A DNA stretch of 64,000 nt from a virus. The notes beneath the pieces are model-generated. The model searched no databases. It saw only the letters and a list, made by a program, of their open reading frames with translations, and was not told the origin of the DNA. Location: positions 61,422-125,421 of IMG/VR virus record IMGVR_UViG_3300021168_000016; one strand, given 5' to 3'. The stretch's first letter is position 1. Each line of letters begins with the position of its first letter. Position numbers and translations under genes: made by a program. Of the stretch, positions 21,009-61,208 are shown piece by piece.

Positions 21009-21479
21009 ATGGTCTACTTCATTCAAAGTGCCTGCCCAAAAGGGCTTATCAAGATAGGTAATTCGGATAAACCCTTAACCAGGTTGAAAGAACTTCAAAC
21101 AGCTAATGGTTACAAACTGACATTCCTGAAGATTATTCAGGGAGGTTATCAGGAAGAATTAATCACAAAGAAGAGATTCAGGCAGTTCCGTGTTTTGGAG
21201 GGCGGAACCGAGTGGTTTAAACCAGAAAAGGAACTACTCGATTACATCAAATCACTGGTATTAGAACAGGCATTTGAAATGCCTACTACTTACCAAGAAA
21301 TACCTGGAAAGTATGATCCGAGTATTATATCACAAACAGCACTACTTTCTTTGTCTAGTCGAAGACAACTTTCAAAGAGGACTGAGATAAGCAATGAACA
21401 ACTTCTTTCAACGGTGAAGAAGCAAGAATTACCTTCACGAATTGATTTTTCGTTACAAATCAAACTAAGGAGAATATGA
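21009..21479 (+). CDS. GIY-YIG-like (T5orf172/MUG113 type) protein
   Basis: 156 aa. VYFIQSACPKGLIKIGNSDKP, RLKELQT, then 'ELITKKRFRQFRVLEGGTEWF' follows the T5orf172/MUG113 branch of the GIY-YIG nuclease fold (V/I-Y-x-I, KIG, R, E, GEWF-like). The C-terminal third is extra and polar. Such proteins are common in phages, with unclear targets. Preceded directly by promoter motif copy 1. Confidence 0.7.
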   Translation: MVYFIQSACPKGLIKIGNSDKPLTRLKELQTANGYKLTFLKIIQGGYQEELITKKRFRQFRVLEGGTEWFKPEKELLDYIKSLVLEQAFEMPTTYQEIPGKYDPSIISQTALLSLSSRRQLSKRTEISNEQLLSTVKKQELPSRIDFSLQIKLRRI

Positions 21480-21480
21480 T

Positions 21481-22134
21481 ATGAGTACAGCAGAAGTAAT
21501 TCAGTTTGAGGAATCTGAATCTCAAGAGATTTCTCTTACAAAGATGTATGAAATCGCAGTAGAATCACTAAGTCCCGTCGGATTCGGACGATACTATGAA
21601 CGAGAATATCCGGCAACACCTGTGGAACAAAACAATAAAGAGACGTATGAAGAACGGACTTGGATGAAACGCCTCTGGATAAACGAAGACGGTAAAGTCT
21701 TCATTCCTGGAGTATCATTCAAAGGGGCGTATGTAAACGCTGCGGGACAGAATATGCTCCCTGATAGAGTTCCAAATACTGGGAATAAAGGGACTTACAC
21801 GAAACACTTCGCTGCTGGTTTCCATGTTATCAACAATGTTGTTACTGAATATACTGAAGCAGATGTTGTCAGGAATAAATGGGGAAAGTGGTTACATGTT
21901 CCCGCAAATGCACAACGAGGAGGGAAGACAAGGGTTATGCGCTGCTTCCCAACAATCCCAAAGTGGGCCGGCAAACTACAGGTAATCACCCATGATCCTT
22001 GTTTGACTAAAGATATCCTAAAGCGTTTCGGAGATGCAGCAGGGTTAGTAATTGGCGTCGGTTCTCTTCGTGTCCAAAACAACGGAATGTGGGGGCAATT
22101 CCGAGTAGTTTCTGTAGAAGAAAAAGCTTTTTAA
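21481..22134 (+). CDS. Phage protein with RAMP-like features
   Basis: 217 aa. 'EDGKVFIPGVSFKGAYVNAA' and the region RVMRCFPTIPKWAGKLQV ... VIGVGSLRVQNNGMWGQF recall a widespread phage/prophage family in which a similar VMRxRPxFxxW ... GIGxxRP...GxxGxF arrangement occurs. 'IPGxSxKG' also occurs in Cas7/RAMP proteins. No cas gene or repeat array is nearby, so a CRISPR role is not supported; a single-stranded nucleic-acid-binding role is only an inference. Confidence 0.55.
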   Translation: MSTAEVIQFEESESQEISLTKMYEIAVESLSPVGFGRYYEREYPATPVEQNNKETYEERTWMKRLWINEDGKVFIPGVSFKGAYVNAAGQNMLPDRVPNTGNKGTYTKHFAAGFHVINNVVTEYTEADVVRNKWGKWLHVPANAQRGGKTRVMRCFPTIPKWAGKLQVITHDPCLTKDILKRFGDAAGLVIGVGSLRVQNNGMWGQFRVVSVEEKAF

Positions 22135-22445
22135 GATTCGATGCGATGCAATACGCTGAAATATGATAGGATTTGATGGAATATAATCTAATCGGATTAG
22201 ATTTGATAAGATACGAAGTATTTTTATACTGGAATTATGATAGGATCAGATCAAATCTGATGGAATCAAATCGGATAAAATAAGATCGAATGTGATCTGA
22301 GAGAATGAGATTTAATTTGATAAGATATGAAGTATTTTTATACTGGAATTATCATGCGATGAGATAAGATGTAATATAATCTGATACCATCAGCCAAGAT
22401 CTGTTTTGATGGGACCGGATGCGATATGATACGAGATTTTTCACT
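22135..22445 (+). repeat. GATNN pentanucleotide island with 38-bp direct repeat
   Basis: A gene-free stretch built from degenerate 5-nt units GATNN/AATNN (GATAA GATAC, GATGC GATGC, GATCA GATCA). Inside it, 22201-22238 and 22315-22352 are the same 38 bp with one mismatch and each contains a small hairpin AGTATTTTTATACT. No ORF, promoter consensus or tRNA seen. Confidence 0.8.
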
Positions 22446-22459
22446 TTCGGAGAATCTCT

Positions 22460-23164
22460 GTGCTACAAGACTCCCTCGACAAAATAATCGGAACATACTT
22501 TGCAGGAATTACTCGATCAAGTTTTACTTACAAAGACAGAGTCTACCCACCACAAAATCTTTTAGTAAGTCATTTGTTGTTTAGAGGATACACTTGTCCT
22601 GAAAATTGTGGAGGGTGTTGTCCGCGATTTTCTCTGGATTACCTGACCTCAGAGTACTGTCCGATGCCACAAGTCAAACTCAGGGAAGTTGACTTTAATG
22701 GGAGTAAGATTCCCATTATATCCGATATGCAACTTGATCATCAGGACCACCATTGCAAAAATCTGACTAAATCAAACGGCAGATGCGGAATTCACGGAAA
22801 CCAACCATTTTCATGTGATTTTGAATTATGTCGATTTCTAACCTTCAATGACAGAAATGTATTAACTTCCAAATTATTCGGTAGAGGCTGGGCTTTTCTT
22901 CGAACCGATAACGAAAGAGGAGCTCTTTGTGAGATGCTTCCAGTCACTAAAGAAACGATTGACGAAGTCATAAGGAAGCTGATCCGATTAAAGCAGTGGG
23001 CAGAGTATTTCGGCGTCGATCATTGCTTAGACGCTATAATCCAATGGGCAAGATCAGGATCAGGAATGGATCTTCTTATCCCGAAACACAAAAAGGTGGG
23101 ACTAAATATAAAAAGCATTTCCGGCCCGCAAGAAGAAGACCCGTTAATTCAAATAGAGTTATGA
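22460..23164 (+). CDS. YkgJ-type cysteine-cluster protein
   Basis: 234 aa from GTG 22460. CPENCGGCCPRFSLDY (about residues 46-61), then CPM, HHCKNL, GRCGIHGNQPFSCDFELCRF fit the zinc/iron-chelating YkgJ/CxxCxxCC family. Members are proposed to bind Zn or an Fe-S cluster; no enzymatic role is established. Its last 20 residues (GLNIKSISGPQEEDPLIQIEL) recur, diverged, behind the HNH gene at 23613-23684, indicating that the original gene end was displaced. Confidence 0.75.
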   Translation: MLQDSLDKIIGTYFAGITRSSFTYKDRVYPPQNLLVSHLLFRGYTCPENCGGCCPRFSLDYLTSEYCPMPQVKLREVDFNGSKIPIISDMQLDHQDHHCKNLTKSNGRCGIHGNQPFSCDFELCRFLTFNDRNVLTSKLFGRGWAFLRTDNERGALCEMLPVTKETIDEVIRKLIRLKQWAEYFGVDHCLDAIIQWARSGSGMDLLIPKHKKVGLNIKSISGPQEEDPLIQIEL

Positions 23165-23613
23165 AAAAACTACCTATTAGAAACAGAAAACTCCCTAAGA
23201 AGGGGCTGCTTCGCAAGAAAAAGGAATTCTGTAAAACAAGCCACCCATTGTGGAATGTTTACTCTAGTATGGACACTAGGTGTAATAAGGATAATAGTTC
23301 CGACTACCGCCACTATGGCGGACGAGGAATTAAAATGTGTGAAAGATGGTCGTCTTCACTTAAAAATGATAAAGGCTTCTGGAATTTTATAGAAGATATG
23401 GGTCCAAGACCTGAAGGTCGTACACCTTCAGGAAAACGGCCTGCTTTCACACTAGAACGTAGAGATAATAATCTAGGTTACAGCAAAAAAAACTGCTACT
23501 GGGCACCTTGGAAGGAACAAGCCAATAATAGACGAAAACCTAAAAGCATCGCTCAACTGGCTAGAGCCAAAGCGTTTACTAATGTTATGAGATTAGGATT
23601 CTACGGTAGTTAA
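23161..23613 (+). CDS. HNH homing endonuclease-like protein
   Basis: 150 aa from ATG 23161, overlapping the YkgJ-like stop (ATGA). The series HPLWNVYSSMDTRC, YRHYGGRGIKMCERW, DMGPRPEG, LERRDNNLGYSKKNCYWA, QANNRRKP is the standard pattern of free-standing phage HNH nucleases. It presumably cuts gene copies lacking the insertion. It lies between the restored and the displaced tail of the YkgJ-like gene. Confidence 0.8.
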   Translation: MKKLPIRNRKLPKKGLLRKKKEFCKTSHPLWNVYSSMDTRCNKDNSSDYRHYGGRGIKMCERWSSSLKNDKGFWNFIEDMGPRPEGRTPSGKRPAFTLERRDNNLGYSKKNCYWAPWKEQANNRRKPKSIAQLARAKAFTNVMRLGFYGS

Positions 23614-23684
23614 AGAAGGTAGGCTTGAACATAAAGAGTATCGGACTCGTAGAAGAAGAACCTCTCATCCAAATTACACATTAG
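23613..23684 (+). pseudogene. Displaced 3' end of the YkgJ-like gene
   Basis: In frame this reads KKVGLNIKSIG ... EEEPLIQITH then stop, aligning with the end of the gene at 22460 (KKVGLNIKSIS ... EEDPLIQIEL). The DNA differs at many third positions, so the intact tail upstream came from a related but distinct gene copy. There is no start codon or ribosome site; it is not expected to be translated. Confidence 0.75.
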
Positions 23685-23764
23685 TAATCATGAATTTCGG
23701 ATTTTTCATCTGATGATGAAGCACGAATCGTGATGTTTACAAATAACAGAAAAGGAGAAGAAAA

Positions 23765-24046
23765 ATGCCGGAAGATAGAATGAAAGTTATTGCAGCTAAA
23801 CTGCTCAACCTATTCGGTGCTAGAGGCCAGCACTGGATAAGAGGTGAAGAAAGCAACGGTAATGGCGACTACTGCCTGATAGGTGGTATGAAAGAGTTAA
23901 ACCTTACTCATGAAATGAAAACGTTACAAAGAGCTGTACGTGAAAAGACAAAGCATACTTCCATCGCAGCATTTAACGACCAGCACTACTGGCCTACCAT
24001 CAAAGACTTTCTCTGCAGTTACATCCGTCCGAAAGTAAAGAAATAA
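23765..24046 (+). CDS. DUF6197-like hypothetical protein
   Basis: 93 aa. A region of YCLIGGMKELNL followed by IAAFNDQHYWPTIKDFL resembles small proteins with the pattern 'CxxGAL ... FND ... F' (DUF6197). Good ribosome site (AAAGGAGAAGAAAA). It precedes the four-gene paralogue cluster. Confidence 0.5.
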   Translation: MPEDRMKVIAAKLLNLFGARGQHWIRGEESNGNGDYCLIGGMKELNLTHEMKTLQRAVREKTKHTSIAAFNDQHYWPTIKDFLCSYIRPKVKK

Positions 24047-24058
24047 AAGGAGGCTGTC

Positions 24059-24475
24059 ATGCCACTAAATGTACCACTTCTACGCGAAATTCAGAAGCAG
24101 ATACTGGAGAAGCCCAACACTTTCTTCATGAGAAATTGGATAAGAAGAAAAAAGTTTGAGGGTTCTACCTACATTAATGATGAAGGACTCAGTACTAGAT
24201 ACGCTGAGTGTGGAACTGTTGGCTGTATAGCTGGGACCGCCTGCCTGATAATGGAGCGTGAAGGGAAACTTTCCGAACTTAACGGCGCAGATGACATCAA
24301 AAGCGGGGCAATTGACCTACTCGGCCTTAAGGACGTAGGAAATTCACTCTTCTACGTGGATAACTGGGACTGTGAAATTCGTAAGGAGTACAGAGAAGCA
24401 CCAACAGCTAAGTGTCGGGCTGTTGCGGCGTGTAAACAGATCGATCTGTACATCGAACAACACAAAGGAGAATAG
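24059..24475 (+). CDS. CGTxGCIAG-motif protein, paralogue 1
   Basis: 138 aa. N-terminal helix PLNVPLLREIQKQILEKPNTF, then RNWIRR, ECGTVGCIAGTACLI (about residue 51-65), then a helix and VDNWDCEIRKEY ... ACKQIDLYIEQH. The family occurs singly in many bacteria and phages without a known function; the paired Cys could bind metal or an Fe-S cluster. First of four tandem copies. Confidence 0.7.
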   Translation: MPLNVPLLREIQKQILEKPNTFFMRNWIRRKKFEGSTYINDEGLSTRYAECGTVGCIAGTACLIMEREGKLSELNGADDIKSGAIDLLGLKDVGNSLFYVDNWDCEIRKEYREAPTAKCRAVAACKQIDLYIEQHKGE

Positions 24476-24477
24476 CT

Positions 24478-24924
24478 ATGCCAAAGTTAAACGTACCTCT
24501 ACTGAGAGAAATACAGAAGCAGATCCTCAGGGAACCAAATGGCTTCTTCATGAGATCTTGGATACGCAGAAGAAGTCATGATAATGAAGAATTCTTTTCT
24601 GGCGATATTGTAGCAGGAGGATCAGATCTACAAAGATTTCCTGAGTGTGGTACAGCTGCATGTATTGGAGGCTGGGCAGTATTACTTTCCGGAGGCACAT
24701 ATAACGAGAACGTAGAACCTATAGCCAAATCCCTTCTAGGCCTTTCTAGTACTTGGCTCTTCCAAGTTTCGACTTGGGATAGAGATCTCCAAGGAAAGTA
24801 TTGGTCTGAGCCATCAGTCGAGTGTCGTGCAGCTATCGCTGCTGAACAAATCGAACGTGTCATTCAACGCTACGGAGAAAAGGAGAGTGAAAGTGAAAAA
24901 GTCACTAAATGTGAAGCTACTTAG
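24478..24924 (+). CDS. CGTxGCIAG-motif protein, paralogue 2
   Basis: 148 aa. Same order as paralogue 1: KLNVPLLREIQKQILREP, RSWIRRR, ECGTAACIGGWAVLL, STWDRDLQGKYW, AAEQIERVIQRY. The core Cys pair is CGTAAC instead of CGTVGC. Starts two bases after paralogue 1. Confidence 0.7.
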   Translation: MPKLNVPLLREIQKQILREPNGFFMRSWIRRRSHDNEEFFSGDIVAGGSDLQRFPECGTAACIGGWAVLLSGGTYNENVEPIAKSLLGLSSTWLFQVSTWDRDLQGKYWSEPSVECRAAIAAEQIERVIQRYGEKESESEKVTKCEAT

Positions 24925-25309
24925 AAAGGTGCAGAAGCATATCATGAAGGAGCCTAAGCGTCTCCTCATGGGAGAGTGGCTAGTCACCAAATCTAAGAAA
25001 GTTCCCCAGTTTGAGAACGATGCAGGCGAATGGGAACATTTTCCGAAGTGTAATACAGCTGCCTGTATAGCCGGATGGGCAGTTATGTTACATGATAAAC
25101 ATCCTCCACGAGGAAAATCAATTGAGACTAGAGCTACCAAGATATTGGGTGGTAGCTCTATGGACAGCTTGTTTTATACCTCTCTGTGGAAGCTAGAGCA
25201 CGAGTTCAACACAGCAGAAACTCCTCGTCAACGAGCTAAGATAGCCGTTAAAGAGATCGATCACTTCATCAAAGAACATGAGAAGAAAAAAAGGAGTTTA
25301 GGTAAGTAG
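24893..25309 (+). CDS. CGTxGCIAG-motif protein, paralogue 3
   Basis: 138 aa from GTG 24893, seven bases after AAGGAG; it overlaps paralogue 2 by 32 nt. NVKLLRKVQKHIMKEPKRLLMGEWL and KCNTAACIAGWAVML show that it belongs to the set, but the first Gly of the motif is Asn (CNTAAC). Ends with a basic Lys-rich tail. Confidence 0.7.
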   Translation: MKKSLNVKLLRKVQKHIMKEPKRLLMGEWLVTKSKKVPQFENDAGEWEHFPKCNTAACIAGWAVMLHDKHPPRGKSIETRATKILGGSSMDSLFYTSLWKLEHEFNTAETPRQRAKIAVKEIDHFIKEHEKKKRSLGK

Positions 25310-25344
25310 CTTTGGAAGTTAAATAAGGATGAAAGGAAAATCAA

Positions 25345-25800
25345 ATGCCGCTAAATGTTAAACTGCTTAGAAAGATACAGAAACGTATCCTAACCCAACC
25401 ACAGGCATTCTTTATGCACGACTGGATACGTAGAAAAGAGTATTCCTCCAACAATACATTCCAGAATCCAGACACAGGTAAAGTGACAGAATTTACCACC
25501 TGTGGTACTGCTGGCTGTATAGCAGGATGGGCTATCCTGTTAACAGAGAAGAAAGGAGATGCGAAACTCATCTGGTCTAGCCAAATCCAGGAGAAGGCCA
25601 CAGAGATACTTGGCCTAAGCCCCGGTGAGGACCTCATATTTGGTTCACCAAACTGGGGGACAGAACTTAGCGATGCTTACGAAAATGCTAAGTCTGATCT
25701 TTGTCGTGCTGCTGTAGCGGTGAAAGCAATAGACAACCTGATTGAGCGGCACAAGGCAAAGAAACCTAAGGCTGTATTAAGCTCCTTTGAGAGCTTCTAA
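25345..25800 (+). CDS. CGTxGCIAG-motif protein, paralogue 4
   Basis: 151 aa. NVKLLRKIQKRILTQPQAF, HDWIRRK, TCGTAGCIAGWAILL, then NWGTELSDAYENA and VKAIDNLIERH. It is the copy closest to the family consensus. Followed by the strong terminator at 25808. The four copies share about half of their motif residues and look like an old tandem expansion. Confidence 0.7.
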   Translation: MPLNVKLLRKIQKRILTQPQAFFMHDWIRRKEYSSNNTFQNPDTGKVTEFTTCGTAGCIAGWAILLTEKKGDAKLIWSSQIQEKATEILGLSPGEDLIFGSPNWGTELSDAYENAKSDLCRAAVAVKAIDNLIERHKAKKPKAVLSSFESF

Positions 25801-40112: not shown

Positions 40113-40823
40113 ATGAAAAAGGCTTTAGTGGTATTATCCGGTGGGCAAGATTCAACGACCTGCCTTTACTGGGCAAAGAAAGAATTTGAAGAAGTTGCTG
40201 CTATAACATTTAACTATGGGCAGAAGCATATTGCAGAAATCGACGCTGCTTTGAAGATAGCCAACCTAGCTCAAGTAGACCTCGAAATAATTGACGTTCC
40301 TGATATCCTAAAGAGTAGCTCTCCTCTTACGGATCCTACAGTAGAACTTGAGACCTATAGTAACTACAATGAGATGGAAAAGATTATTGGAGACCGAGTT
40401 GAATTAACTTTCGTCCCCATGCGAAATGCTTTCTTCCTAACAGTAGCGGCCAACCGAGCAGTCTATGCTGACTGTCTTAATCTCGTGACTGGCGTCTGTA
40501 GTATGGACGGCACGAACTACCCGGATTGCCGTCCCGGTTTCATCAACAAGCAAGAAGAGACCATCAACCTCGCTCTCGGATATGAAAATAAGATTGTCTT
40601 TAGAATTCATACGCCGTTGATTGACTCAACTAAAGCAGAGACTGTTAAGTTGTCTAAATCACTTCCGGGTTGCTGGCAAGCCCTTGCTTATAGTCACACA
40701 TGCTATGCTGGTAAAGTGCCTCCATGCGGCACCTGTCACGCATGTACATTGAGGGCTGAAGGATTTAAACAAGCCGGATTAAAAGATCCACTGATTGAAA
40801 GGTTTGAGAAGGTTAGTCAATGA
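40113..40823 (+). CDS. queC: QueC, 7-cyano-7-deazaguanine synthase
   Basis: 236 aa, usual length. P-loop SGGQDSTTC at residues 8-16 binds ATP; PMRNAFF near residue 101 and the C-terminal zinc motif CYAGKVPPCGTCHAC (about 203-217) are diagnostic. It converts carboxydeazaguanine to preQ0 using ammonia and ATP. Preceded by promoter motif copy 3, followed by a gene overlap of 4 nt. Part of the DNA-modification set with folE, dpdA, queE, queF and queD. Confidence 0.93.
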   Translation: MKKALVVLSGGQDSTTCLYWAKKEFEEVAAITFNYGQKHIAEIDAALKIANLAQVDLEIIDVPDILKSSSPLTDPTVELETYSNYNEMEKIIGDRVELTFVPMRNAFFLTVAANRAVYADCLNLVTGVCSMDGTNYPDCRPGFINKQEETINLALGYENKIVFRIHTPLIDSTKAETVKLSKSLPGCWQALAYSHTCYAGKVPPCGTCHACTLRAEGFKQAGLKDPLIERFEKVSQ

Positions 40824-42033: not shown

Positions 42034-42309
42034 ATGAAAAAGAGATACATCGAAGAACAGTGGAACGAGTTCCGTAGGAGCGTTCTATCGAAAGACGCTC
42101 CTCAGATTCAAATAGATGAGATGCGGAAAGCCTTCTTCGCTGGAGTAGTAGCATTATTCGGCCATGTGCTGGGTAACCTTTCTGAAGGCAATGATGTTAA
42201 AGAGCAGGATCTACAAATGATGGCTAGCATCCATGAGGAGCTCGAGGAATTCAGAGATGAAATAGCTGTAATCATTGCATCTCAATCCAGGAAAGTAGGA
42301 AAGACTTGA
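42034..42309 (+). CDS. Conserved small phage protein
   Basis: 91 aa. 'EEQWNEFRRSVLSKDAPQIQIDEMRKAFFAGV' is a pattern seen in many phage proteins of about this size; function unknown. Overlaps the dpdA start (TTGA). Confidence 0.65.
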   Translation: MKKRYIEEQWNEFRRSVLSKDAPQIQIDEMRKAFFAGVVALFGHVLGNLSEGNDVKEQDLQMMASIHEELEEFRDEIAVIIASQSRKVGKT

Positions 42310-43364
42310 AGCCGAAGATCAGATTGATGGTAGATTCAGGCGCGTATAGCTCCTGGACGCAAAATAAGCCGATCTCCCTTCCTGAATACACAGAGTTCGT
42401 TCTAAAGAATCAAGAGGTAATAGATTCTGTAGTTAACCTTGATGTAATACAACCCGGCTCGCCTGAGACTGCGGCTGCGGCAGGAAGAGAAAACTTCTTA
42501 AAGATGAGGGAGGCTGGTGTCATTAGCCTCCCTGTCTTCCACGCTCGTGAGAGTCTAAAGTGGTTCGATCTTATGCTGGAGGAATGTCCTTACATTGGGA
42601 TATCAGCCACTAGTCTGGTTAGTCCTAGAGAGCAGCAATCATTCCTTGATCTAGCATTCCATTATGGAACAGATAGTAAAGGCTATCCAATTGCTAAGTA
42701 TCATGCATTCGGAGATACAGCTCCAAAGTCCCTGTTGTCATATCCATGGTTTAGTTGTGATAGCGCCACCTGGATGATATCAGGATGCAGAGCAGGCTCT
42801 GTCAAGCTGAAAGGGAAGACATATAGACTACGTTCTAAAGTAGTCTCTGATACTAATTACATTTCAGATCACGATGCTCTTCCTCAGAAAGAGGCTTGGC
42901 AAAACGAATTCAGAATGCTGGGATTAGATCCTGATGCTGTGATGTCTGTTAAGACTACACCTTCCCAACTGGCTATGATTAGATCCTATCTTGTAGCTAG
43001 TGACATCTTGAAGCTCCAAGAACAGACAAGAGGAGTAACACGCTTTAAGAAGCCAGGAGCACTCATCATCAATAAGAAGCAGGAGGCTGGTGGAATAGAA
43101 AGAGAAGGTCCTATCCGTGTCATATTTGTGATTAGTCCATCGGCAGCGTTTATGAACTTCCCAGTTATATGTGCTCTTGGGATCAAGGATATCTTGGCGT
43201 CTTACTTTTATATTGCGAAGGAAAAACCTAGATTTTGGCACGAACGATTAGTCCCCTTTCTACACGACCCAATGGCTTTCATTAAAAGTGATATGAAAAT
43301 GTCTGCTTTCTATTCTAAACTTCAGGAGGTGTTACTAAAAAAGGAATCGACGATTTTAGTATAA
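42306..43364 (+). CDS. dpdA: DpdA, phage DNA-guanine transglycosylase
   Basis: 352 aa from TTG 42306, overlapping the preceding stop. MVDSGAYSSW near the N-terminus and NLDVIQPG match the catalytic Asp regions of the tRNA-guanine transglycosylase superfamily as seen in phage DpdA; FHARESLKWFDLML, ECPYIGISAT and YHAFGDTAPK follow. It swaps guanine in DNA for a deazaguanine base. Tail residues after about 260 are phage-specific. No tRNA TGT zinc motif is seen. It completes the pathway. Confidence 0.85.
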   Translation: MKPKIRLMVDSGAYSSWTQNKPISLPEYTEFVLKNQEVIDSVVNLDVIQPGSPETAAAAGRENFLKMREAGVISLPVFHARESLKWFDLMLEECPYIGISATSLVSPREQQSFLDLAFHYGTDSKGYPIAKYHAFGDTAPKSLLSYPWFSCDSATWMISGCRAGSVKLKGKTYRLRSKVVSDTNYISDHDALPQKEAWQNEFRMLGLDPDAVMSVKTTPSQLAMIRSYLVASDILKLQEQTRGVTRFKKPGALIINKKQEAGGIEREGPIRVIFVISPSAAFMNFPVICALGIKDILASYFYIAKEKPRFWHERLVPFLHDPMAFIKSDMKMSAFYSKLQEVLLKKESTILV

Positions 43365-50403: not shown

Positions 50404-51954
50404 ATGTTAGCAGTTAATGAGATCTACGGACCAGTAGCACAGGGAGAAGGGGCATCCTCTGGGATGCCCTGTATCTTCCTTCGGCTATCCGGATGTAACC
50501 TAGCCTGTATTTGGTGTTTCATAGGCTATACAAAGATTGCTACGCCTAAAGGATCAAGGAACATCAAGGACATTCGCGTTGGAGACTTAGTACTAAGCTC
50601 TGACGGAAGAATCATAGTCCCAAAGAAAGTAACGAAAATCTTTAAAAGAGAAACTTCTAAAGATGAAATCGTTAGAGTTTTAGTTGAGGGCGATCCGGGT
50701 GTGGTAAATAATAGAGTCTACTGTACTAAGAATCATGAATTCTCAACAAATAGAGGTTGGGTTTCTGCGCAAGATTTAAAGCCCGGTGATGAAATTGAAT
50801 TTGTAGATAACATCAACTGGCATATGAAAAATGATAACCCCTCCTGTAGACCTGAAGCTAAGCAACGATTATCGGAAATGGGTAAACGAATACATACCGG
50901 TAGAAGGGCATCTACAGAGACACGACTACGGTTAAGAGCATCTAAGTTGGGACCCAAGAATCCGCGGTATACCGGAACCTGTAATGATCCGGGATATTTA
51001 ACTCTTTGGTATAGAACAAGGAGGGATGTTCTAAAGAGGGATGGGTACAAATGTCAGAACTGCGGATCGACAGAAAACCTAGAAGTTCATCATAGTATTC
51101 CCTTCAAGATTTCTAAAAGTCATGATCCAGGTATTCTAATTACCCTCTGTAGATCATGTCATCGACAAGCCGAAAGACAGTTTCTTCACAACGGTAAGAA
51201 AGTTGTATCAGTAACACCTGTCAGCGTGAAGCAAGCAGCAAGATTCAATGGCAATAGTAAGGTAATTGAGGTCTACAATCTAGAAGTAGAGGATAACCAT
51301 ACCTACTTCGCCAATAGTTTTCTTGTGCATAATTGCGATACCCCTTACACATGGAATTGGGGAGGGACTAAGTTCGAGCATCCTGACAAGTATGATCCTA
51401 AACTTGAAATGCACACGATGTCTGTACAAGAGGTTAGTGATGAGATTTACGAGAAATCAGAAGGAATTAGGCTTCTAGTTATTTCAGGAGGCGAGCCGAT
51501 GCTACAGCAGTCAGCATTGATACACTTTCTGAGGAAGCTAAAAGATGAGAATCCCAACTGGTGGGTAGAAGTTGAGACTAATGGGACAGTTGAACCTCAT
51601 GATGAATTCATTACGTTGATAAATCAGTTCAACTGCTCTCCAAAGCTATCTAACGCAGGAAAGGATAACCCTCGTAGCAAGAGATTAAAGTTTCATGTAC
51701 TAAAGAAGATTAAGAATTCAGGTAAAGGTACATTCAAGTTTGTGATCCAATCAGAAATTGATCTAGAGGAGATGAGAGAGATTCTCCATATGGCTGAAAT
51801 ACCGCCAAGTAGTGTTTGGCTCATGCCGGAAGGACGTACTCGTGAGGAGCAGTTAGCTAGACAAGAGCAGGTTGAGCGGATGACTAAGGAACATGGCTAC
51901 AACTTTAGTCCCAGACTACACATCCTTGAACATGATAATAAGCGAGCTGTGTGA
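50404..51954 (+). CDS. queE: QueE, 7-carboxy-7-deazaguanine synthase, with intein
   Basis: 516 aa. The exteins together give 243 aa, normal for QueE. The radical-SAM CxxxCxxC cluster is CNLACIWC: after C35 and I-W, an intein of 273 aa (C38 to VHN) sits before the third Cys of CDTPYTW. After splicing CNLACIWCDTPYTW is complete; SGGEPMLQ and the substrate region VEVETNGT follow. It makes carboxydeazaguanine from CPH4. The stop overlaps the small zinc-finger gene (GTGA). Confidence 0.92.
   Translation: MLAVNEIYGPVAQGEGASSGMPCIFLRLSGCNLACIWCFIGYTKIATPKGSRNIKDIRVGDLVLSSDGRIIVPKKVTKIFKRETSKDEIVRVLVEGDPGVVNNRVYCTKNHEFSTNRGWVSAQDLKPGDEIEFVDNINWHMKNDNPSCRPEAKQRLSEMGKRIHTGRRASTETRLRLRASKLGPKNPRYTGTCNDPGYLTLWYRTRRDVLKRDGYKCQNCGSTENLEVHHSIPFKISKSHDPGILITLCRSCHRQAERQFLHNGKKVVSVTPVSVKQAARFNGNSKVIEVYNLEVEDNHTYFANSFLVHNCDTPYTWNWGGTKFEHPDKYDPKLEMHTMSVQEVSDEIYEKSEGIRLLVISGGEPMLQQSALIHFLRKLKDENPNWWVEVETNGTVEPHDEFITLINQFNCSPKLSNAGKDNPRSKRLKFHVLKKIKNSGKGTFKFVIQSEIDLEEMREILHMAEIPPSSVWLMPEGRTREEQLARQEQVERMTKEHGYNFSPRLHILEHDNKRAV
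50515..51333 (+). mobile_element. Intein with HNH endonuclease in QueE
   Basis: 273 aa. Block A begins CFIGYTKIATPKG; block B is TKNHEFSTNRG; blocks F and G are EVYNLEVEDNHTYFANS and FLVHN before the +1 Cys. An HNH nuclease is present in the middle: CQNCGSTENLEVHHSIPF and CRSCHRQAERQF. All residues needed for splicing (Cys1, TxNH, terminal HN, Cys+1) are present. Confidence 0.92.
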
Positions 51955-55519: not shown

Positions 55520-56382
55520 TAAACCTTAAACAGTCTATACAAGCAGCAGTTCCTAACTGGAAGGGTGATCTGCTTGTACACGTAATGGGATGGTTCGGTG
55601 ATGGTAAAGTTCATCGTGTGAACCGTTACACTTCTAACAATCCCGGTGTCATTGCTAAGCAGTTAAACGCAATGGAGGCAATTGGAATCGATGGAATAGT
55701 ACTGACTTGGCAAGGTCCTACTGTTAACCCTTTCCTGCACAACACAGCTATCAAACTGTGGGAAGGCTGTATGGAAAGACAGATGCTATTTGCATTGCTG
55801 CTTGATCCATGGATCGCTAAGAACCAACCGAATCCTACCCAAGCAGTTATCACTGCGTTGCAGTCTGCAGATTGTCAAATGATACTTGCGTCTCCCGCTT
55901 ATCTACTTGAAGACTATATCCTTGAGTTTGATTTAGCCAATTCAGCCGGAGTAAATATACAGACAGTTCAAGCAGCTATTCCTGATATACCTCTCCTGTC
56001 TTGGCATACAGGATTCTCCTGGCCTAATATCGGAGCTAATCCTTCTAATCCTACAGATTCTTTGGCGACACTGAAGGCAGATAACGCTAAGCCTACAATG
56101 AAGGTTGCAGGTGTAAACATAGGATTTAATGATGCGGGATCACCTTTGCCTGTAGGAGCTACACCATCTAATTTCCTTGGTGTTAGGAATTACGGTACAT
56201 CTGTCTGGGGTGGTCCACCTAGGGTTATTGATCATCAGGCAGGCAATTGGTTCTACGATCAGCTAGCTGTAATCCCTTCCTCAGTCCCTTATATCTCATT
56301 AGTCACATGGAATGATCATGATGAAGGCACAGGGATTGAACAAGTTATTGCTGCGTTAACAGGCGTTAGGATTGGAATATGA
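55516..56382 (+). CDS. Glycoside hydrolase GH71/GH99-like protein
   Basis: 288 aa. 'HVMGWFGDGKVHRVNRYTSN', 'AMEAIGIDGIVLTWQG' and 'LVTWNDHDEGTGIE' resemble the TIM-barrel families GH71/GH99, where acidic residues near the strand ends cleave alpha-mannans or alpha-glucans. No signal peptide. It is out of place in a recombination unit and may act on host polysaccharide at lysis or on nucleotide-linked sugars (speculation). Confidence 0.45.
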   Translation: MINLKQSIQAAVPNWKGDLLVHVMGWFGDGKVHRVNRYTSNNPGVIAKQLNAMEAIGIDGIVLTWQGPTVNPFLHNTAIKLWEGCMERQMLFALLLDPWIAKNQPNPTQAVITALQSADCQMILASPAYLLEDYILEFDLANSAGVNIQTVQAAIPDIPLLSWHTGFSWPNIGANPSNPTDSLATLKADNAKPTMKVAGVNIGFNDAGSPLPVGATPSNFLGVRNYGTSVWGGPPRVIDHQAGNWFYDQLAVIPSSVPYISLVTWNDHDEGTGIEQVIAALTGVRIGI

Positions 56383-57068
56383 ATTATATTTTATACCTGA
56401 TAACTAATCTTATAACTGGGAAGGTCTATGTTGGACAGACTATCCAATCAATTTCTATAAGATGGGTTGAACATTGTTGTACAAGAGATAAAGATTGTTT
56501 CTACCTACAAAATGCCATAAAGAAATATGGAAAGAAAAACTTTAAGATAGAAGAATTATGTAGAGTATCTACACAAGAGGAATTAGATTTTGTAGAAATA
56601 CTATTTATACAAGCACTTCATGCAACTGACCTCAACTTTGGTTACAATCTACGTGATGGAGGTAGTCGAGGAGCACACTCAGCACGTAGTAGGCAGTTAA
56701 TGTCAATCGTAGCTATAGGTAGACCGAAGTCAGAAGAACATAGAAAACATGTCGGGGATGCAAGAAGGAGGAAATGTATAGAAGATCCAGCATTTAGAAA
56801 GAAACTTAGTGATATAGGAAAGGCCAGAACAGCAAAATTTACCCTTGAAGAACGTCGTAAACAAACAGATTACATGCGTACCTTCATAAAGCCGCTATCA
56901 AAAGAGGTGCGTAAAAGGATAGGAGAAATAAACAGTACTAAGAAAAGAACAGAAGCGGAGAAAGCTCATCTCAGAGAGTGTACAATTCGTCAATTTGCGA
57001 AGAAAAGAATGGGTAAATTTCATTATATTCAAATTCAAAGAACGATTTCTATGGGTCTCTGTATATGA
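56379..57068 (+). CDS. GIY-YIG homing endonuclease
   Basis: 229 aa, ATGA overlap with the hydrolase. YILYLITNLITGKVYVGQT (GIY-YIG), SIRWVEHC, YGKKNFKIEEL and the acidic pair in 'QEELDFVEILF' are canonical; two or more NUMOD3-type helices follow (SEEHRKHVGDARRR, FTLEERRKQTDYM). It lies just before the SbcD-like gene and may home into the hydrolase/sbcD region. Confidence 0.85.
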   Translation: MNYILYLITNLITGKVYVGQTIQSISIRWVEHCCTRDKDCFYLQNAIKKYGKKNFKIEELCRVSTQEELDFVEILFIQALHATDLNFGYNLRDGGSRGAHSARSRQLMSIVAIGRPKSEEHRKHVGDARRRKCIEDPAFRKKLSDIGKARTAKFTLEERRKQTDYMRTFIKPLSKEVRKRIGEINSTKKRTEAEKAHLRECTIRQFAKKRMGKFHYIQIQRTISMGLCI

Positions 57069-60253: not shown

Positions 60254-60840
60254 TACTAAAGATAGATCACAGTATTCATGACATTAATCTAGAACCATTC
60301 CTTCAGTATGGTAGCCCTGATACTAAAGGATATCTTATCCTGGGCGCTGGAGTAGACCAATATAAATTACTGGCATGCCTTTCTAAGCAGCTACCACTAG
60401 GATCACGGGTTGGCGACCTTGGTACTTTCTACGGGAATTCAGCTATTGCATTAGCATCTAATCCAGGCATTAGTGTTCTAACTTGTGATACTACAGATCA
60501 TGTTCGGGGGGAATGTATTGGTTACAAGAATATGGGTAACATAGGTTATCAACGTTGTCCCGCAATTGAGCTGTTACCTCTTCTAATAAATGCCGCCTTA
60601 ATAGTTGTAGATATTGGATTACACACCGGGCCACTTGAACAGGAAGTTCTCGATTATCTTATCGCTCATCGCTACAAAGGGATCGCAGTATTCGATGATA
60701 TCCATTACAGTGAAGGAATGAAAGCATTCTGGAATAATATCAAGCTGAAGAAGTTTGATGTTACACCGGTAGGGCACTGGTCAGGATCAGGGATTGTAGT
60801 CTTTGATCCAAGTACGATTGATGTAGAGGTGAATCTATAA
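60250..60840 (+). CDS. Class I methyltransferase-like protein
   Basis: 196 aa. SRVGDLGTFYGNSAIALA is a GxxGxxG-like SAM loop; VLTCDTTD and LIVVDIG follow as strands beta2/beta4; VFDDIHYS. A Rossmann fold close to methyltransferase_24 or cephalosporin-hydroxylase types. TAATG overlap with queD makes a link with base modification thinkable, but this is unsupported. Confidence 0.6.
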   Translation: MILKIDHSIHDINLEPFLQYGSPDTKGYLILGAGVDQYKLLACLSKQLPLGSRVGDLGTFYGNSAIALASNPGISVLTCDTTDHVRGECIGYKNMGNIGYQRCPAIELLPLLINAALIVVDIGLHTGPLEQEVLDYLIAHRYKGIAVFDDIHYSEGMKAFWNNIKLKKFDVTPVGHWSGSGIVVFDPSTIDVEVNL

Positions 60841-61208
60841 TGTTTACGATTAGAAAGCAGTTCTCATTTGAAGCTGCCCATCACTTAGTTGGCCTACACA
60901 AAGATCATCCCTGCATGAGGCAACATGGCCACTCGTATCGTGTAGAAGTTACTCTTCAATCCGAGACTCTTAACGATGTTGGATTTATAGTTGACTATCG
61001 AGAACTCGATGAATTGAAGCAGTATATCGATCGTAAATTCGACCATAAAGATTTGAACGATGTTGTTGAAATAACAACAGCTGAAAGTCTCGCAAAGCAT
61101 TTCTTCTTTTTCTGTAGGTCTAGATGGCCGCTGGTTACTAAAGTGGGAGTTAGTGAGACACAGAAGACATGGGCTGAGTATTCTTCTCCAAGTTTTGAGA
61201 TCCTATGA
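60840..61208 (+). CDS. queD: QueD, 6-carboxytetrahydropterin synthase
   Basis: 122 aa, usual length. FSFEAAHHL, the zinc His in QHGHSYRVEV, FIVDYRELDELK and the C-terminal VGVSETQKTWAEY with the conserved Glu. It converts dihydroneopterin triphosphate to CPH4. An annotated Cys in CMRQHGH is present (the catalytic Cys region). Feeds QueE. Confidence 0.92.
   Translation: MFTIRKQFSFEAAHHLVGLHKDHPCMRQHGHSYRVEVTLQSETLNDVGFIVDYRELDELKQYIDRKFDHKDLNDVVEITTAESLAKHFFFFCRSRWPLVTKVGVSETQKTWAEYSSPSFEIL

Follow-up and report, generated by a model that had tools for sequence, protein, structure and literature searches.

How can a homing endonuclease gene enter the coding end of another gene and leave that gene whole? 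In the usual view, homing endonucleases gain access to coding sequences only within self-splicing introns or inteins, and otherwise lie between genes. The question is raised by a locus of a 125,421-base IMG/VR phage record, in which an HNH endonuclease gene is bordered on both sides by the end of the same gene. The initial annotation of this DNA had proposed that the HNH gene arrived with a replacement tail of its own, derived from a related phage, and that the old tail was thereby pushed downstream. The window analyzed here is a stretch of 64,000 nucleotides from that record, and the coordinates of this phage refer to it.

The End of the Host Gene Is Duplicated Around a Free-Standing HNH Gene

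The host gene (22460-23164, plus strand) is intact and encodes a YkgJ-like protein of 234 amino acids with a CxxCxxCC putative metal-binding domain, matching Pfam PF03692 at E=2e-4, slightly below the gathering cut-off, and phrog_16018 at E=2e-36. Its working 3' end, at 23090-23164, is KKVGLNIKSISGPQEEDPLIQIEL, then TGA. The HNH gene follows on the same strand (23161-23613, 150 amino acids), with its ATG at 23161 overlapping the host TGA in the form ATGA, and stops with a TAA at 23611-23613. The last base of this TAA is the first base of a second tail, the stop codon being formed at the junction. The second tail (23613-23684, plus strand) is KKVGLNIKSIGLVEEEPLIQITH at 23613-23681, then TAG at 23682-23684. 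Since it has an in-frame TAG immediately upstream and lacks a credible start codon, it is a remnant and not a gene, probably the old 3' end of the host gene, displaced and no longer translated. The tail homology starts at the left boundary of the insert (23085-23095), where the original break would have fallen at the KK|VG codons; upstream of this boundary no sequence is duplicated. The right junction, between the HNH 3' end and the displaced tail, lies at 23608-23616.

In the surroundings of this locus, a stretch of about 300 bases of short, GAT-rich repeats with a 5/10-base periodicity lies directly 5' of the YkgJ-like gene (22135-22440), and four tandem diverged paralogues of the phrog_889 type are located shortly 3' of the displaced tail (24059-25800). 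Two genes of GIY-YIG type, at 21009-21479 (T5orf172/MUG113) and 56379-57065 (GIY-YIG), are candidate homing endonucleases.

The HNH protein matched phrog_8790, phrog_3377 and phrog_374, each with an E of about 1e-29. It carries the core YGGRGI...C.RW...FIEDMGPRP...LERRDN..GY...NC.WA common to nine homologues, with two short insertions relative to them, and no solved structure matching the HNH profile was found. The gene is free-standing, being of the HNH family, with a start and a stop of its own, outside any intron and intein: Rfam gave no intron match in 21400-24800 even at E<=1, no intein (Hint) domain was detected at the locus, and the host stop codon precedes the HNH gene. The flanks of the other HNH gene of the same genome were without duplication.

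Both the DNA and the translations confirmed the duplicated gene end. The two tails align with 18 of 21 residues identical and one codon gap, and the 21 aligned codons comprise 5 identical, 13 synonymous and 3 non-synonymous differences, so that 13 of the 16 changed codons are silent, in line with the mainly silent differences noticed in the initial annotation. Synonymous divergence (pS) is saturated and pN is 0.10 (P = 3e-7 versus neutral divergence). When the 24-residue tail was compared with the six frames of the 125-kb record, the second copy scored 73 and the best unrelated place 36; the resemblance is therefore not a matter of chance. No third copy of the tail and no second family member were found in the genome. 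This pattern requires two copies that each evolved for a long time as coding sequence, and fits neither a local duplication of recent date nor a copy that has long been dead. Compared with random 24-codon stretches of the genome, the codon fit of the downstream tail ranked at the 64th percentile and that of the upstream tail at the 4th. The downstream tail thus looks native and the upstream one slightly foreign, in the direction anticipated by the initial annotation, although this contrast, with about 20 codons, is weak and of borderline weight, and the tails are only 22-24 codons long.

Close relatives of this particular phage were not recovered. A nucleotide search of the window region against phages gave no match, and protein searches with the YkgJ gene or its upstream neighbor in viral and bacterial contigs yielded no close relatives. 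A profile search gathered 42 YkgJ relatives, the best with about 57% identity; none above this value was found in the phage, viral-contig, plasmid and genome collections, and the plasmid search gave no relatives. None of the YkgJ relatives was found to have the full KKVGLNIKSI tail, some ending in a similar motif such as KKTGLGL, and a degenerate DNA pattern for KKVGLNIKSI had no match in viral contigs. At the homologue loci inspected there was no second adjacent YkgJ copy. Nor was the downstream tail seen as part of an unrelated conserved gene, the arrangement named at the outset as contrary to displacement.

The Same Layout Recurs at Other HNH Loci

HNH genes of the same family were collected from viral and bacterial contigs, and the DNA of both sides was compared in translation. 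A first scoring was inflated by low-complexity frames of high GC content, and shuffle-normalised scoring with control ORFs was used instead. The strict filter retained 9 of the 165 HNH loci (seven real cases, three of which form one clade, and two artefacts), but only 1 of the 461 control ORFs taken from these contigs. In total, seven further independent cases with a gene end duplicated around the HNH gene were obtained among the 165 loci, such elements making up about 4% of the HNH loci sampled; L207, L227 and L185 did not pass the strict filter and were accepted after inspection. The 3' end is duplicated in a DUF7484 gene of phiKZ-like phages (L075, L142/L143 and L144), in a small ORF (L129), in the Amidase_2 endolysin gene of a Paenibacillus prophage (L207), in the gene of a Rha regulator (L185) and in a gene without assigned function (L078). 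At L102, on the opposite strand, and in the NinB gene of L227, the duplicated part is the 5' end. L097, an HNH tandem, and L070, of low complexity, were rejected as false positives, and L220, L101, L130, L137, L157, L109 and L151 were not accepted as cases.

Silent changes exceeded the neutral expectation in every case except L185, least strongly in L227, L078 and L129. Counting the window, all seven 3'-end families have an HNH ORF whose end lies at or within the displaced tail. The overlap is one base in the window and five bases in L075/L143; the ORF directly abuts the displaced tail in L078; in L129 and L185 it is fused in frame to the old tail, and in L207 its stop codon falls within the displaced KLEPE codons. 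The unit therefore consists of the replacement end and the HNH gene, joined directly to the target.

The displaced endolysin tail of L207 (3254-3326 of that locus) has been split by a short insertion (reading LKLEPE, then EFRRLGFLK) and is an instance of displaced-tail decay. The amidase relatives of L207, with 40-49% identity, share the C-terminal motif EMRRLGFLA and are too distant for the tails to be assigned. Searches of phages for empty sites of L129 and L102 matched only HNH or unrelated tail proteins. At L227 (2624-3749) a truncated old NinB head is followed by the HNH gene and then by an intact NinB with a different head, and the ATGA start/stop overlaps of this locus suggest translational coupling through the HNH gene.

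Empty Sites and Exchanged Tails in the DUF7484 Family

A relative without the HNH gene, running straight from the gene body into the displaced tail, had been predicted by the initial annotation, and such relatives were found for the homologous DUF7484 element of the phiKZ-like phages. L259, L260-L262 and L266 have the gene body, a single tail, a terminator-like hairpin and a shared downstream gene, and are collinear with the displaced tail and downstream gene of L075 and L143. The displaced tail of the L075/L143/L144 element is the native one, common to close relatives.

Between L143 and L144, identity is 98.8% in the gene body and 99.7% downstream, yet their tails are exchanged: L143 has the order X-HNH-Y and L144 the order Y-HNH-X. 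When the displaced tail of L144 is aligned with the tail in use in L143, 50/51 nt agree; for the displaced tail of L143 and the tail in use in L144, the figure is 48/51 nt. Hence a displaced tail has served as the working tail in a phage that is nearly identical elsewhere. In L075/L143, the hairpin that follows the working tail matches that of the empty-site L259 at 18/19 nt, which suggests that the unit took a gene end plus hairpin from an L259-like lineage. In the stretch 3681-4876 of L143 and of L144, the HNH gene is recombinant, with 81% identity in the N half and 99.6% in the C half, and this, together with the swapped tails, suggests repeated gain and loss. The tail swap would be accounted for if recombination between the two tails had removed the element and the site had then been invaded anew.

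A Probable Mobile Unit Carrying Its Own Gene End

The reading that best fits these observations, and which we regard as very probable, is that the HNH gene and the tail preceding it form a mobile unit, the old tail having been displaced downstream and the host gene kept whole. In the window this unit would span about 23090-23612 and consist of a replacement host-gene 3' end plus a free-standing homing endonuclease. The endonuclease would cleave the tail in a copy of the gene that has not been invaded, and the break would be repaired from a donor carrying the recoded tail and the HNH gene (tail*-HNH). Homology in the gene body would serve the left side of the repair; on the right side, the founding event would involve joining, one-sided or by microhomology, at the cut end or close to it, and in later rounds the displaced tail would provide a homology arm, making the process ordinary homing. 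The product would be body-tail*-HNH-old tail, with the donor tail substituting for the old one so that the gene remains whole, and the silent differences in the donor tail would plausibly shield the donor from its own enzyme. The arrival of a replacement tail from a related phage, as first proposed, is supported by the relatives, the synonymous divergence, the codon use and the lack of an intron or intein. Displacement is well supported, mainly by relatives, and in this phage the transfer would presumably have brought in the upstream tail.

Other origins of the duplicated end were weighed against the same observations. Two full tandem YkgJ genes, of which an HNH insertion or deletion left only the last 23 codons of the second, would fit the large synonymous divergence, which is natural between paralogues, and tandem paralogues do exist nearby (24059-25800). 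However, the remnant starts exactly at the HNH stop codon and holds the gene end only, the inspected homologue loci are without a second adjacent copy, and the HNH-less DUF7484 relatives hold just one copy of the gene, followed by the same DNA downstream, so that we consider this history unlikely. Being short and placed right beside the insert, the duplicated stretch is as expected if the target had been duplicated on insertion, like a target-site duplication, and the copies had drifted in place. Nevertheless, synonymous sites are saturated while the untranslated copy keeps the protein sequence, a long-drifting non-coding copy would be expected to gain non-synonymous changes and frame breaks, and the displaced tail in L144/L143 matches the working tail of another phage and not its own, all of which makes a local duplication very unlikely.

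Phage introns often contain HNH genes, and in the window the second tail can still be read in frame to its stop codon, as could the second exon of a self-splicing intron (or the rest of an intein-bearing gene) from which two C-termini were made. Against splicing stand the negative Rfam and intein searches, the start codon that the HNH gene has of its own after the host stop, the upstream tail that already completes the gene, and an HNH ORF that itself reaches the junction and leaves no space for a 3' intron core; we hold it to be very improbable. Also quite unlikely is ordinary recombination of diverged phages at this gene end, in which the HNH gene would be a bystander. Phage genomes are indeed mosaic, with HNH genes at mosaic boundaries (PMC10448857), but HNH genes show this layout repeatedly, across unrelated hosts and genes and always with their ORF ending at the junction, and other ORFs rarely show it.

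The Host Gene and DNA Base Modification

The best YkgJ homologues, those of Pseudanabaena phage Pan1 and Mycobacterium phage Knocker, lie within queuosine/7-deazaguanine gene clusters. The phage of the window itself encodes QueC (40113-40820), a DpdA/TGT-like protein (phrog_887; 42306-43361), QueD/PTPS (60840-61205) and a QueE-like protein, and probably carries 7-deazaguanine-modified DNA. Because of these two circumstances, the YkgJ-like host gene probably belongs to DNA base modification as well. No account of DpdM/YkgJ in 7-deazaguanine phages was found in the open literature. The QueE-like radical SAM gene (50404-51951) holds an HNH intein (Hint, Intein_splicing, HNH and Radical_SAM domains). 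With the intein in this gene and the tail-type HNH element at the YkgJ-like gene, the base-modification pathway would have been colonised by homing endonucleases in two ways.

Significance and Comparison With Known Systems

In engineered home-and-rescue gene drives, a Cas9-based insert is placed in a gene, and a recoded gene end keeps the function of the gene and resists cutting. Those drives are man-made and the likeness is one of design analogy only; the elements described here would be a natural example of the recoded-rescue design. On balance, we lean towards the general view that phages and prophages host recurrent HNH homing elements inside coding sequences by means of a recoded 3' or 5' gene end, a third solution beside introns and inteins, and that these act as natural home-and-rescue drives whose cycles of gain, loss and re-invasion swap gene ends. 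A tail-carrying HNH element could hold a conserved coding site without splicing, and such elements would account for some of the mosaicism seen where phage genes end. Former cut sites would be marked precisely by the point at which the displaced tail begins, and the phiKZ-like family, in which empty, X-HNH-Y and Y-HNH-X alleles all occur, allows a direct test of the mechanism. Displaced gene ends are not described in the phage HNH reviews and surveys consulted within the open-licence literature, and an earlier description is possible.

Fungal mitochondrial genes offer a precedent, with hybrids bearing mobile endonuclease ORFs in atp6 of Allomyces macrogynus and in atp6, atp9, cox2 and nad3 of Glomus sp. 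(PMC3630166). As in these hybrids, the endonuclease ORF of the window lies behind a gene whose C-terminal part is duplicated, and the tails have diverged mostly at silent sites. The inserted tail of the fungal hybrids replaces the native one, which is found downstream and resembles that of close relatives (PMC3630166). By contrast, the fungal endonucleases are of the LAGLIDADG or GIY-YIG type and ours is HNH, the setting here is phage and prophage genomes instead of mitochondria, with tails of 9-24 codons, and our cases also include start ends (L102, L227) and HNH genes ending inside the displaced tail.

The free-standing Seg and Mob endonucleases of T4 are likewise selfish genes without an intron, spread by double-strand break repair with co-conversion of the flanks (PMC2988022). 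For the T4 introns, one-sided homing with microhomology joins has been documented (PMC2988022) and could explain the founding event proposed above. Unlike our elements, the T4 genes are intergenic and their products cut hundreds to thousands of bp away (PMC2988022), whereas here the HNH gene is placed within a coding region and brings along a replacement for the part cut off. Among the Cluster J mycobacteriophages, the HNH insertion of Omega gene 51 beside lysin A gave lysin A a new 3' end (PMC3706429), and so is tied, as in the window, to the new 3' end of a neighboring gene. In Omega, unlike the window, 35 bp of the target were lost and no displaced old end was reported, the event being read as a repair error or as the result of a distant donor (PMC3706429). 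Given the fungal precedent the principle is not new, and in phages the Omega insertion is the nearest report found in the open-licence literature.
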